Below, piece by piece: positions 26,764 through 33,824 of a DNA stretch of 44,185 nucleotides; positions within the stretch are counted from its first letter, which is position 1, and each line of letters begins with the position of its first letter. Source of the stretch: an uncultured Erysipelotrichaceae bacterium (GTDB lineage: Bacteria; Bacillota_I; Bacilli_A; RF39; UBA660). The position numbers and the translations under genes were made by a program. The notes beneath the pieces are model-generated. The model worked only from the letters and a program-made list of their open reading frames with translations. It was not told the DNA's origin and searched no databases. The stretch spans positions 1 to 44,185 of the forward strand of contig CADCFX010000010.1 of NCBI GenBank assembly GCA_902800945.1, written 5' to 3'.

Positions 26764-28953
26764 TTAACCACCAATCCAATAACATCCAGGGGGGCAACTC
26801 TTAATAGTAACTGATTTATCAGTATTTATTACAAGTCTATTAGCATTTATTATTTCTTCCTTATGTTTTTTAAATAATTCCTTTTCTTTTCCCTGATCAA
26901 CATATTCGTTACACATTGTGGTTATTTGATACACTGTTAAATAGCTCTTATTATTAGCTTTATCTGTTGAGACATAAGTATGTTTAGCAAGGATTGGACA
27001 AAAACTAATTCGTTGATTACAGTTGCAGTATTTATCGTTATAACCTATTCGTTTAGTTTCAGAATCTAGATTTCCTGATAAGGTATCATTAGGATATGAT
27101 GGCTGGAATCCGCCAATAGCTGAGTTTTTAATAACAACACAATTCCTAGAGTGAGTACTAGTTTCGGATGAACAAGATACATCTTGACTGACTATACCGT
27201 TGGCTTGATTGTAATCAAGCGAGTCTGTCCAACAACTTGGATACATAGGATGACAATTCCCATATTTATTTATATATAGACCGCTGCTTAGCTTTAGTTC
27301 TGTATTAATATACGGAGCCTCTCGTGGGGTTTTATCTATTTTAATTGTCTTATCGCAAGAGTTTTCTCCTCCAGCATTTTTCACATAACCATATATAGTT
27401 ATTCCAGACGCTGGAGTTTCAGTATCTAAAGTATAGGTCGTCTCTTTATTCGTAGAACCTTGTGTTTGAGCTAAACCATACTCAGTTGGAGACGAAGTGG
27501 TTGTCATTGTTATTTTAACATCCTTATTATTCCATCCGTATTCGTTAGGCCCTGGGGTCGCCGATAAGGAACAGGTTGGTATTTTCACCCAATTAGCAGT
27601 GTATTTTCTATCGCCGGTACTACCTTTGGAAACCGTAACGTTTTTTGTTGGTTCTGACAATCCCGGTCCTGTCCAACCAATAAAGCCATATTCCGCCCTG
27701 GTCGGGTTATTTAAAGTAAAGGCCTCTGATTCGATATCGTAACTTGATGGATTAGTTTTTCCAGGTTCAAGCACTCCGCCTGCTAAGTCATATGTAATAT
27801 TATAAACGTGTTTTTCCCAGTTGGCTACAATAGTATGGTCTGTTTTTTGATCGACCTTTGTTGAATTTTCTATTATTATTGAACCATCTTTATACCAAGA
27901 GGTAAAATCATATCCTAGTTTTGTTGGAGTACAAAGGTCCTCTTGCGCGTTGTTCTGATTTTTACCATAGGTATTAGTATACACTACTATCTTTTTGGCT
28001 GGACAGCTATCTTCATCTCCAGTATTAACATCATATGACACTTGAACTGTTGGCAAGAAAGCGTATGGTCCAGCAATCATGTCAGAAGTTTTATTATTCT
28101 TATTATCTAACTCTGTTCCGCCTTTTATCCATAAATATCTGGTTTCATCTACTGTTTCTACTAATATTTCTGCACTAGCATTTTTATCACTGTTGTTCAA
28201 AAATTGCAGTTCACTATAAGACGTAGGTTTTTTTCTTTTATCTTTTGACCAACCATACTGCATTGTAAAGTTTTGCTTTAGTTTAGTACTTTCTGTATTA
28301 ACTATTATTTTAATTCTTTTAGAAAAAGACATGTTTAAATTGCTTGGTGGATTAATAGTGATTACTGGTCCGCTATCTGAGGTTCTATCACTTTTACAAA
28401 CACCTGGTTCTTGAATGCTTTCTAAAATACCAGAAGCGTTTTTAGCGTTGCCTTTTTTATAAACGATAATAACTGATGATTTATCACACATTTCATTATC
28501 ATCGCTTAGTAATCCATTTTCTATTAATTCTCCTACTGTTACCAATTTATAACAAGAACGATTACTTACGTTAATGAAAGAATCTAGTTCATATTTGTTA
28601 GCGGGATCGCTATTGCTATTAATCGTATAATTCTTAAATAATTGATAATCATTTTCACTAGCAATATCTTGGAATTTTTCTTTCAAAAAATTATTAACGT
28701 CTTCAACGTTCTTCTGGCTTATAACTATATTAGCGTCAGAACTATTTTTACACGAAGGTAAATAAGTTGTTTCTTCCTTCGAATAAAACGTCAAAGAAGC
28801 ATCATGAACATTTTGTTCCGCCGTATAAGCAAGTCGTTGCTTTTGATTATGTAATATTGTAAATACTCCTATCCCGGCAAATACTGCTAGGGCAGTGACA
28901 ATAACTATAACTATTAATAGTTCTACGATGGTAAAGCCTTTATTTCTTTTCAT
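26764..28953 (-). CDS. Large type IV prepilin-like surface protein with InlB-type repeats
   Basis: The 729-aa product starts MKRNKGFTIVELLIVIVIVT, a textbook prepilin peptidase site (Gly-Phe-Thr, Glu at +5) and transmembrane helix. Residues about 40-200 form the pilin-like domain with several cysteines. The middle has two tandem InlB/Listeria-Bacteroides-type repeats, about 310-385 (GYDFTSWYKDGSIIIE, ending HTIVANWEKH) and about 385-455 (YNITYDLAGGVLEPGK, then YGFIGWTGPG, ending RKYTANWVKI), and the C-terminal 270 residues are rich in Cys, Tyr and Asn. A prepilin start fused to adhesin-like repeats points to a large pilus-tip or surface adhesin. No other pilus gene lies beside it. Confidence 0.88.
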   Translation of the reverse strand: MKRNKGFTIVELLIVIVIVTALAVFAGIGVFTILHNQKQRLAYTAEQNVHDASLTFYSKEETTYLPSCKNSSDANIVISQKNVEDVNNFLKEKFQDIASENDYQLFKNYTINSNSDPANKYELDSFINVSNRSCYKLVTVGELIENGLLSDDNEMCDKSSVIIVYKKGNAKNASGILESIQEPGVCKSDRTSDSGPVITINPPSNLNMSFSKRIKIIVNTESTKLKQNFTMQYGWSKDKRKKPTSYSELQFLNNSDKNASAEILVETVDETRYLWIKGGTELDNKNNKTSDMIAGPYAFLPTVQVSYDVNTGDEDSCPAKKIVVYTNTYGKNQNNAQEDLCTPTKLGYDFTSWYKDGSIIIENSTKVDQKTDHTIVANWEKHVYNITYDLAGGVLEPGKTNPSSYDIESEAFTLNNPTRAEYGFIGWTGPGLSEPTKNVTVSKGSTGDRKYTANWVKIPTCSLSATPGPNEYGWNNKDVKITMTTTSSPTEYGLAQTQGSTNKETTYTLDTETPASGITIYGYVKNAGGENSCDKTIKIDKTPREAPYINTELKLSSGLYINKYGNCHPMYPSCWTDSLDYNQANGIVSQDVSCSSETSTHSRNCVVIKNSAIGGFQPSYPNDTLSGNLDSETKRIGYNDKYCNCNQRISFCPILAKHTYVSTDKANNKSYLTVYQITTMCNEYVDQGKEKELFKKHKEEIINANRLVINTDKSVTIKSCPPGCYWIGG

Positions 28954-31704: not shown

Positions 31705-31730
31705 AAAGACCTTTGAAAAGAGGTCTTTTT
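31703..31730. terminator. Bidirectional terminator between rnj and the peptidase-like gene
   Basis: AAAAAGACCT/AGGTCTTTTT arms with an 8-base loop lie between convergent genes and overlap both stop regions. Confidence 0.9.
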
Positions 31731-33096
31731 AATTTGCTGATAATTCTTTTATTCTTACTGCTGTCCAACCAGCATATCCATGAAGACTTGCCGGGCGTTC
31801 TCCTTTAGCACTAAACGTCCACTTATAATTCCGATTTGTTTGTTGGTAGCTACCCCCATCATAAACTGTAACAATGCCTGTTTCAGCATCTATTTCGCCG
31901 ATAAAGGCAACGTGTTTCCATCCATTCCAGGTGTTGCGATCTGTAGGATCAACTGGTACTGCGAAGAAATGTAGTATGTCGCCAACTCTTAAATCACATG
32001 GTTTCGTAATTATTTTTCCGTATTGGGCCTGTTTATCAAACTCTGTGCTTTCTTGGTATTCAGGAGTTCCATCTTTTCTGGTCCCATCTCTAAAGATACC
32101 TGCTTTCCAATAGACCATGTCAACGGACCAATTACAATTAGTTGTCATATTATCACCTTTTAGAAGTGCATCAAAGTCTCTTCTCGGTTCTGATAAACCG
32201 TGGGTTTCATATCTAAAATCTCCTGGATAAAAAGCGTCCGAGCTTCCTGTTGGATAGTCAAGTTGATCTTCTCTTTCATGTTTAATTGCATTAAGCAATT
32301 GACTATACCATAAACAGCCCCCACCCCATTTACAATACTTTGAATTCTCTCCTCCTGTACCATTAAAGTAATCAAAGCCATACATCGTCATATAGCCAAA
32401 GACGTATTCAGAAGCTTGTTGTAAATCACTATAACTTTCGCCTTTCCAAGTTTTTCCATAATACTTCTTATATATACTACCCAGCTTTTTTGCATAGGCT
32501 TTATGGCCGTCCCTGGTTAAAAAACCTTTTTGACTATCTATAAATTGGTGATAGTTTTCATAAGTGAAGTCATTTAAGTGTTGTTCAACAATTTTTAAAT
32601 TAGTAGAAGAAAACTGAGCCGGAACAGAACCGTTTCCTTTATAGGAAAAATCCAGTGGCTGGGATCCATTAAGCCCCATATCACAAGTGTCCAAACTACC
32701 TTCAATTACTTGATCTTCAAATTTTTTTATTTCTTCTTTAACCGAATTATCATATGCTACAACAAATTCATTACAGATCTCACTGTCAGGAGCTTTAATG
32801 CAAGCTTCACAGGCTGCAAATTCTTCTTTACCTCCAGTATTAACGGTCAGATTTATCAAGTTAATTATGATGGTAGGAATAAGGAGAACGACAATTGCGG
32901 CAGCTATTTTTTTGCCGATACCGAACGCGGCTTTAAAGGCCTGATCAGCGGTTCCTTTTATTAGTACATTCCAAATCGTAAAAGTTGAGGTAATTATAAC
33001 TATTAGACCAACAGCTAGTTTTAGAATATATAATAATAAGCCAATATATTTCCATGCTCTTATTGTGTTTTCACATATTTCTAATGTTAATAACAT
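31729..33096 (-). CDS. Membrane protein with C-terminal cysteine-peptidase-like domain
   Basis: The 455-aa product starts at the ATG at 33096 (GGTGATAATT before it). Two membrane helices occupy the N-terminus (GLLLYILKLAVGLIVIITST, about 19-38; about 64-84), an arrangement like VirB2/T4SS-type small membrane proteins. Residues about 95-140 hold CEAC and a few other cysteines. The C-terminal domain looks like an NlpC/P60- or CHAP-type fold: TTNCNWSVDMVYWKAG (Cys near 321), DLRVGDILHFFAV, WKHVAFIGEI (His near 395) and VTVYDGGSYQ (Asp near 413). I infer a cell-wall hydrolase. The exact family and the membrane fusion need a profile search. Confidence 0.75.
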   Translation of the reverse strand: MLLTLEICENTIRAWKYIGLLLYILKLAVGLIVIITSTFTIWNVLIKGTADQAFKAAFGIGKKIAAAIVVLLIPTIIINLINLTVNTGGKEEFAACEACIKAPDSEICNEFVVAYDNSVKEEIKKFEDQVIEGSLDTCDMGLNGSQPLDFSYKGNGSVPAQFSSTNLKIVEQHLNDFTYENYHQFIDSQKGFLTRDGHKAYAKKLGSIYKKYYGKTWKGESYSDLQQASEYVFGYMTMYGFDYFNGTGGENSKYCKWGGGCLWYSQLLNAIKHEREDQLDYPTGSSDAFYPGDFRYETHGLSEPRRDFDALLKGDNMTTNCNWSVDMVYWKAGIFRDGTRKDGTPEYQESTEFDKQAQYGKIITKPCDLRVGDILHFFAVPVDPTDRNTWNGWKHVAFIGEIDAETGIVTVYDGGSYQQTNRNYKWTFSAKGERPASLHGYAGWTAVRIKELSAN

Positions 33097-33165
33097 AATT
33101 ATCACCTATATCTTTTATATTTTATCATACGATAAACTAATCATACAATATGAAAAAAGCTAAGC

Positions 33166-33198
33166 AAAAAAAAACATGTTGCCCTGTCTAAACAACAT
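33166..33198 (-). terminator. Terminator at the end of the candidate RNA
   Basis: ATGTTG (33176-33181) pairs with CAACAT (33193-33198) around an 11-base loop, followed by nine U in the minus-strand RNA. Confidence 0.8.
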
Positions 33199-33474
33199 AT
33201 TCTTTCGTGACATAAAATTGTAAATATTTAAACTGGACAGAGTTTAAATACCTCTTACCAATAAGTCACATATACGTGCAGCCTGATAGTAAGGTGAGAA
33301 ATGAATCTCTTAATATAATAAAGGAATTACCTCAACTATATTGATAAATAAGATGAGAAAATAACAATAATTGGTACTAATTAGAGCAAAAACTCATGGA
33401 CTATTCCGACTAAAAATAGTACACTAATAATCAAATACTCGTTATTGAATTTTACATCCATAATACTATCAAGT
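33166..33474 (-). ncRNA. Candidate structured non-coding RNA of about 310 nt, or long attenuated leader
   Basis: The 422-bp gap 33106-33527 has no credible coding frame. A strong minus-strand promoter (33481-33509) starts a transcript near 33474 and a Rho-independent terminator ends it at about 33166. Inside is a perfect 9-bp hairpin (ATTTAAACT/AGTTTAAAT, 33226-33249) with a 6-base CUGUCC loop whose CUGUC can pair with GACAG in the terminator loop, and GUGAC/GUCAC and CUUACU/GGUAAG helices nearby. I checked by eye for tmRNA, RNase P, SRP and 6S signatures and found none. It may be an independent RNA or a leader controlling the membrane peptidase gene 70 bases downstream. Confidence 0.55.
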
Positions 33475-33480
33475 ATCTAA

Positions 33481-33509
33481 ATTATACTATGCTTACTTTG
33501 ATAATTCAA
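33481..33509 (-). promoter_or_regulatory. Sigma-A promoter of the candidate RNA
   Basis: TTGAAT (33504-33509) and a perfect TATAAT (33481-33486) are separated by exactly 17 bases on the minus strand, just downstream of the end of the 98-aa gene at 33528. Confidence 0.75.
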
Positions 33510-33527
33510 TAGTTTTTTTAAAACTTT

Positions 33528-33824
33528 TTATTGCTTGTCGTTAAGTTCTTTTATTTTTTCTTTTACCAATAGAATTAAGTCAATTGGAGCATTTATTTTA
33601 GGCAAAACTAATAGGGCGTCGTGTAGTTTGGTATCTAGTGTAACGTTTTTATTAACGTCTTCATATTCTTCATCGATATTAAAATCGATATAATTAGTAT
33701 TTAAAAAACTATCAATATATTCTTTTATAGCTTTTAAGATGTATTCTTTTGTTTTATATTCATCCATTTCTTCAATACCAAAATAAGCTCCGATAAGATA
33801 TCTATATGTATCTTTTGATGTCAT
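33528..33824 (-). CDS. Unknown 98-aa acidic protein
   Basis: The product is soluble and mostly helical, starting MTSKDTYRYLIGAYFGIEEM and ending VKEKIKELNDKQ, with no recognised motif. The ATG at 33824 has GGTGATATT before it, and an extended -10 lies 16 bases upstream, so expression looks real. It is downstream of the terminator of the 545-aa gene. No clear terminator follows it before the candidate RNA promoter. Function unknown. Confidence 0.7.
   Translation of the reverse strand: MTSKDTYRYLIGAYFGIEEMDEYKTKEYILKAIKEYIDSFLNTNYIDFNIDEEYEDVNKNVTLDTKLHDALLVLPKINAPIDLILLVKEKIKELNDKQ

Follow-up and report, generated by a model that had tools for sequence, protein, structure and literature searches.

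Introduction

Among the ornate, stand-alone RNAs of bacteria, OLE forms a dimer and ROOL and GOLLD form RNA nanocages, and all three combine pseudoknots and kissing loops with homo-oligomer contacts. Loop L9.3 of OLE has been argued to make an intermolecular contact, since its loop palindrome covaries between GGCC, GAUC, and AGCU (PMC12286853). ROOL has been described as encoded by phages and prophages, near tRNA islands.

Single traits of this kind also occur in other RNAs. 6S RNA has a stand-alone gene, and some Firmicutes carry two 6S genes. In the retroviral dimerisation initiation site, a self-complementary loop joins one RNA molecule to another, and type III antitoxin RNA (ToxI) is pseudoknotted, has a terminator, and occurs in tandem units.

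The RNA gene analyzed here lies in a stretch of 44,185 nucleotides, hereafter the window, from an uncultured bacterium of gut type. OLE, ROOL, and GOLLD are its closest resemblance in kind, with homo-oligomer contacts that for the window RNA are only predicted, but they are unrelated to it by any test made. The window RNA has no Rfam match, is about half their size or less, is built from different helices and, in contrast to them, occurs as up to five paralogues at fixed loci; unlike ROOL as described above, its class was not found in viral contigs. Its gene stands alone, as that of 6S RNA does, but the RNA has no single long hairpin resembling an open complex. No sequence relation links it to the retroviral dimerisation initiation site, and its palindrome is situated between two helices. 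In contrast to ToxI, it contains no internal short tandem repeats and precedes no constant toxin gene.

Boundaries, Signals, and Fold of the RNA Gene

Minus-strand open reading frames at 31729-33105 and 33528-33824 bound a gap of 422 bp (33106-33527), exactly where a preliminary description of the locus had placed it. The minus-strand signals reported there were also present: TTGAAT (33509-33504) and TATAAT (33486-33481) at a spacing of 17, a U9 terminator tract (33174-33166), and GACAG in the terminator loop (33188-33184). A perfect hairpin with a CUGUCC loop was confirmed as well, with a stem of 10 bp (UAUUUAAACU-CUGUCC-AGUUUAAAUA) instead of the 9 bp proposed. Minus-strand folding energy was -76.7 kcal/mol, as compared to a mean of -55.6 for shuffled sequences (z -4.25; 0/100 shuffles as low). 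Promoter-like sites numbered 17 versus 11.7 expected, a scan result that is by itself unremarkable in AT-rich DNA, and the terminator was absent from a terminator-scan list made under a strict G+C criterion. Since both scans were unremarkable on their own, the case for the gene was based on conservation. A 26-aa hydrophobic open reading frame inside the 5' domain (33461-33381, minus strand) was rejected as a coding candidate: its start codon was displaced or absent in three orthologues.

Helices were evaluated with an alignment-free test (own-versus-cross test), in which the strongest helix joining two fixed windows of one member was set against helices joining windows of different members, with partners permuted 10000 times. 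The features of the window copy, with the evidence for each, are as follows.

33504-33509, minus strand: -35 hexamer TTGAAT; a TTG-type -35 precedes P1 at a matching position in nearly all members whose upstream sequence is long enough
33481-33486, minus strand: -10 hexamer TATAAT, 6 nt before P1; distance to P1 approximately constant in nearly all members
33166-33476, minus strand: RNA gene with a predicted transcript length of about 310 nt, designated copy a (the genome has five); conservation and covariance-model census
33465-33473, minus strand: P1 5' strand CUUGAUAGU, pairing with 33282-33290; own-versus-cross test 0/10000
33300-33464, minus strand: variable 5' domain closed by P1, with hairpin ACUAUUUUUAGUCGGAAUAGU at 33400-33420; fold and comparison of members
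33293-33299, minus strand: pseudoknot strand A, UCUCACC; family covariation 0/10000, weak in the window copy
33282-33290, minus strand: P1 3' strand ACUAUCAGG; own-versus-cross test
33267-33278, minus strand: palindrome CACGUAUAUGUG, predicted homodimerisation site; own-versus-cross Z 13.0, 0/10000
33265-33269, minus strand: P2 5' strand GUGAC; two-sided changes at 5/5 pairs within the family
33253-33259, minus strand: pseudoknot strand B, GGUAAGA; own-versus-cross test
33241-33250, minus strand: P3 5' strand UAUUUAAACU; own-versus-cross test and pair changes
33235-33240, minus strand: L3 loop CUGUCC, predicted to kiss L4; compensatory changes in G289/G021 and in G032
33225-33234, minus strand: P3 3' strand AGUUUAAAUA; own-versus-cross test and pair changes
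33207-33211, minus strand: P2 3' strand GUCAC; pair changes on both sides
33193-33199, minus strand: P4 (terminator stem) 5' strand UAUGUUG; own-versus-cross test and pair changes
33184-33188, minus strand: L4 terminator loop GACAG, predicted to kiss L3; own-versus-cross test and compensatory changes
33175-33181, minus strand: P4 3' strand CAACAUG; own-versus-cross test and pair changes
33166-33174, minus strand: U9 tract of the intrinsic terminator; kept in members

Comparison With Known RNA Classes

The earlier suggestion of a new RNA class was supported by the absence of any Rfam match for the window copy and for 20 loci of relatives. The window RNA had no match at gathering score, and the minus strand of the gap yielded none even at E ≤ 10. 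Among Rfam 15 families, including OLE, ROOL, GOLLD, and raiA, no match reached the gathering score, and only tRNAs were detected in the flanks. A keyword search of the main text of RNA-discovery papers on 26 and 50 genomes found no description of such an RNA. At the level of RNA class it appears to be new; its building blocks, namely a kissing loop, a pseudoknot, and a contact through a palindrome, are already known.

The reported absence of RNase P, SRP, 6S, and tmRNA hallmarks at the locus was borne out. RNase P RNA (RF00011, 268.8 bits) and SRP RNA (RF00169, 56.5 bits) were encoded elsewhere in the genome, on contigs C5 and C2, respectively, and neither a tRNA-like domain nor a tag frame was detected at the locus (ARAGORN, RF00023). 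With RNase P, SRP, and a probable 6S RNA located elsewhere and no tmRNA features in the gap, a housekeeping RNA in disguise was rejected. The only 6S match in the genome (RF00013; C25:26767-26961, locus L018) covered the full model at 37.6 bits versus a gathering score of 46.4, and is perhaps a divergent 6S RNA of the clade. No tmRNA was found in the window's genome (G000; a 90.5% complete bin, L071-L174 plus the window; ARAGORN, RF00023), in which only partial tRNA-like matches occurred. The window RNA was dismissed as a candidate for this missing tmRNA, as it is multi-copy and lacks a tRNA-like domain.

Distribution of the RNA

When 59 related genomes were searched at the nucleotide level, the stretch from terminator to promoter proved to be kept in three other species of the genus (71-79% identity); partial second copies elsewhere were matched in the same search. 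In an alignment of six sequences, the promoter position, CUGUC, and GACAG were invariant, and a long-range stem showed compensatory changes. A covariance model was built from the 3' core (R1) and subsequently improved (R2, R3). With the best 11 candidates scored in each genome, out of hundreds to thousands, R1 found full-length copies in at least 14 of 291 genomes of the family, and at least three in the window's genome. A census with the improved models of all 1,418,106 bases of that genome yielded exactly five copies, which scored 106, 102, 81, 76, and 64 bits, with the next match at 26.8.

Fifty-eight distinct members were collected. They had their own promoter and terminator, an intergenic position, and changing neighbours. 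Conservation in relatives, which had been named as a check on the locus, thus comprised both the stretch kept in three species and covariance-model matches across the genus, in which 13/15 genomes carried the RNA (best 150 candidates per genome): five copies in G000, G007, and G014, four in G010, and one in each of nine others. Occurrence in the family was patchy, with at least 5 of 40 sampled genomes positive, and no copy of the RNA was found in 36 sampled genomes from other families of the same taxonomic class (best 85 candidates per genome in both cases).

A scan of 84,980 species genomes with one exact pattern returned 21 matches. Twenty were located in MAGs of uncultured Bacilli, Mycoplasmatota, Firmicutes, Tenericutes, or 'Erysipelotrichaceae', and all of these were confirmed by the covariance model; the remaining match, in Enterovibrio, was not. 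In viral contigs, the pattern had 0 matches and a looser one 53, of which the model confirmed none; the plasmids searched contained no copy, and phage records produced only short, weak matches. A phage RNA was rejected on the results for viral contigs and phage records. Antisense model matches at terminators were palindrome artefacts and were excluded.

Five Paralogues at Fixed Loci

Of the five copies in the window's genome, a lies in the window, b on C20 behind alaS, c and d in tandem on C24, and e on C36. In a tree of 58 cores, copies a, b, c, d, and e of different species formed five clades (support 0.88-0.999). In the four species with the expansion, the five loci were retained as orthologous sets, except that set b was not found in the incomplete G010, and the tandem order c then d was common to all four. 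Retention of both the sets and the tandem order disfavours a drifting repeat and argues that each copy would be useful. A second tandem pair was observed in a distant genome, G645 (L059, 1003-1131 and 1460-1592, minus strand).

In contrast to the scaffold, the 5' domain enclosed by P1 changed rapidly and ranged from 126 to 295 nt among members. In the n039/n047 subfamily, it consisted of three hairpins with compensatory changes.

Covariation of Helices and Loops

The main test set consisted of 28 representatives less than 80% identical. In these, Z values of the own-versus-cross test were 7.1 for P1, 6.0 for the pseudoknot, 12.1 for P3, 10.9 for P4, and 13.0 for the palindrome (all 0/10000), with weaker results for the kissing loop (149/10000) and P2 (378/10000), figures that are somewhat inflated by related sequences because the permutation keeps no phylogeny. 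Among 13 representatives drawn from members discovered only once the model had been built, the pseudoknot, P3, P4, and the palindrome again gave 0/10000 and P1 17/10000; in the same hold-out, neither the kissing loop (1687/10000) nor P2 (1539/10000) was significant. With tighter windows, the first 20 representatives gave 0/10000 for the kissing loop. In the model alignment, which leans towards structure, 22/22 pairs of P2, P3, and P4 changed on both sides, with a covariation of 0.638 versus 0.188 for shuffled alignments. P2 was nearly invariant, and still all 5/5 of its pairs changed on both sides (GUGAC/GUCAC, UGUGG/CCACA, GCAGC/GCUGC, CAAGUA/UACUUG). The covariation among relatives that had been proposed as a check was therefore found for P1, the pseudoknot, P3, P4, and the palindrome, and the sequence comparisons support strong selection on the helices, including the long-range P1; the 12-nt palindrome suggests that the capacity of the RNA to pair with another copy of itself is apparently selected as well.

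In the window copy, the pseudoknot comprised 6/7 pairs with one C-A mismatch. RNAalifold on the n039/n047 subfamily picked the pseudoknot helix over P1 and P2, and the pseudoknot and P1/P2 could therefore represent alternative rather than simultaneous states.

The contact proposed earlier between the CUGUCC loop and GACAG was supported, more weakly than the helices, by two separate double changes that kept the pairing: CUAUC/GAUAG in G289 and G021, and CUGAC/GUCAG in G032. In most of the distant members, the loop pairing was lengthened to CUGUCAA/UUGACAG. The d copies (C24 in G000, L034 1501-1624, with orthologues in G007, G010, and G014) had a terminator loop without GACAG. They carried UGACA between P3 and the P2 3' strand, which is possibly a relocated partner for their CUGUCA loop.

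A Palindrome Between P1 and P2 Predicts Homodimers

Between P1 and P2, members carried a self-complementary element of approximately 8-16 nt, for example AAAAUGUACAUUUU, UUGCAUGCAA, AAACACGUGUUU, AUGUAAUUACAU, UAUGCGCAUA, and AUACCGGUAU, among others. Its mean Watson-Crick arm was 5.2, as compared to 2.33 (sd 0.17) for shuffled sequences; other windows of the core had arms of 1.0-2.8, except for an adjacent window that covered the same element. Nearly all members had a self-complementary central tetramer, of which eight versions occurred (ACGU, GUAC, CAUG, AAUU, GCGC, CCGG, and others). Since two adjacent bases of a single chain are unable to pair with each other, a symmetric centre points to pairing between two molecules, and the palindrome is predicted to mediate RNA-RNA homodimers. 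Covariation of the symmetric element (Z 13.0) supported an intermolecular contact of the kind found in homo-oligomeric ornate RNAs, by the same logic as the dimer argument for OLE L9.3 (PMC12286853).

The last 3 nt of the palindrome in the window copy overlapped P2, which left about 6 free self-complementary nt, and a similar overlap occurred in the b copies. The free part is thus short in both, and the window copy may be a weak dimeriser.

Genomic Context and Alternative Explanations

The preliminary description had also proposed that the RNA might be a leader of the adjacent membrane peptidase gene. In such a cis-acting leader or attenuator, the L3-L4 contact would control the terminator, a role compatible with the participation of the terminator hairpin in the kissing loop and with the 32/40 loci in which the downstream gene shares the strand of the RNA, often 20-70 nt after the U-tract. 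In the other 8/40 loci, however, the downstream gene was convergent, and no constant same-strand downstream gene was found across the 40 loci. At the locus of copy a, a 98-aa gene upstream was constant in five species, whereas the downstream gene was the peptidase in three and another gene in two; in G014 (L002 1135-1446, minus strand), a 103-aa gene assigned by eye to a WXG100-like family followed the RNA where the window has the peptidase. Copies b-e of the window's genome preceded unrelated genes. The kiss would, moreover, stabilise the terminator, and no conserved competing antiterminator pairing was seen. Because downstream genes differ between species and between paralogues, and some are convergent, leader function is improbable, and the proposed link to the peptidase was not supported. 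Neighbours identified by eye included alaS, topA, rluB/acpS, rpsL, mutL, an ABC transporter, a cation efflux gene, and a peptidyl-prolyl isomerase; a Pfam search of neighbour genes found little. No open reading frame of 85 aa or more overlapped the RNA in 40 loci. Elsewhere in the window, a 729-aa protein (26764-28953, minus strand) combined a type IV pilin-like N-terminal methylation motif with Listeria-Bacteroides repeats.

A conventional trans-acting sRNA, whose 5' domain base-pairs with mRNAs and whose palindrome is simply a hairpin, would also have a stand-alone gene, an intrinsic terminator, and several paralogues with different 5' domains. A simple hairpin has no need of a self-complementary loop centre, yet nearly all members kept a symmetric centre, in eight different sequences, and the pseudoknotted architecture is unusual for base-pairing sRNAs; we consider this explanation rather unlikely. 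Palindromes are typical of dimeric DNA-binding proteins, and the element might instead be a DNA-level site, recognized by a protein or methylated. One protein would fix its sequence, whereas the sequence varied widely with symmetry kept, and its position inside the predicted transcribed core, between two RNA helices, also makes a DNA site very improbable. The five copies, the tandem pair, the scattered positions, and the patchy occurrence in the family would suit a mobile element or repeat that serves no function in the cell. Neither association with a transposase or integrase nor changing loci was found, the immediate neighbours (most flanks identified by eye) including no recognisable transposase; instead, the loci were fixed and orthologous, the c-d order was kept, viral contigs and plasmids held no copy, and the helices were strongly selected, so that such an element is hardly credible.

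Proposed Mode of Action and Implications

The preliminary description was supported in its proposal of a new class and a loop-loop contact but not of a peptidase leader; the palindrome, the pseudoknot, the long-range P1, and four paralogues are additional to it. We favor, with a probability of roughly 70%, a stand-alone structured non-coding RNA outside Rfam, most likely homodimeric, with a constant 3' scaffold and a variable 5' domain, which probably acts in trans. Such an RNA would be transcribed from its own sigma-70-type promoter and end at its own terminator. A constant 3' module made up of P1, the pseudoknot, P2, P3, and P4, in which the loops of P3 and P4 kiss, would close over the variable 5' domain, and the 12-nt palindrome would pair with that of a second molecule, so that the RNA most likely functions as a homodimer. 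Each paralogue would mount its own 5' domain on this common scaffold. The paralogues probably work in trans on separate targets, serving as regulators or scaffolds, either as RNA alone or together with protein. For a more specific version, in which members of a new pseudoknotted class dimerise through a palindrome that drifts in sequence and not in symmetry, and paralogues self-assemble selectively to display their different 5' domains, the odds are about even.

Only a small number of natural RNA homo-oligomers are known, and bacterial RNA classes of comparable complexity mostly lack an assigned role. This RNA is small enough for in vitro synthesis and probing, its predicted dimer contact can be tested by symmetric swaps, and the five natural paralogues permit a test of self-recognition between RNAs.
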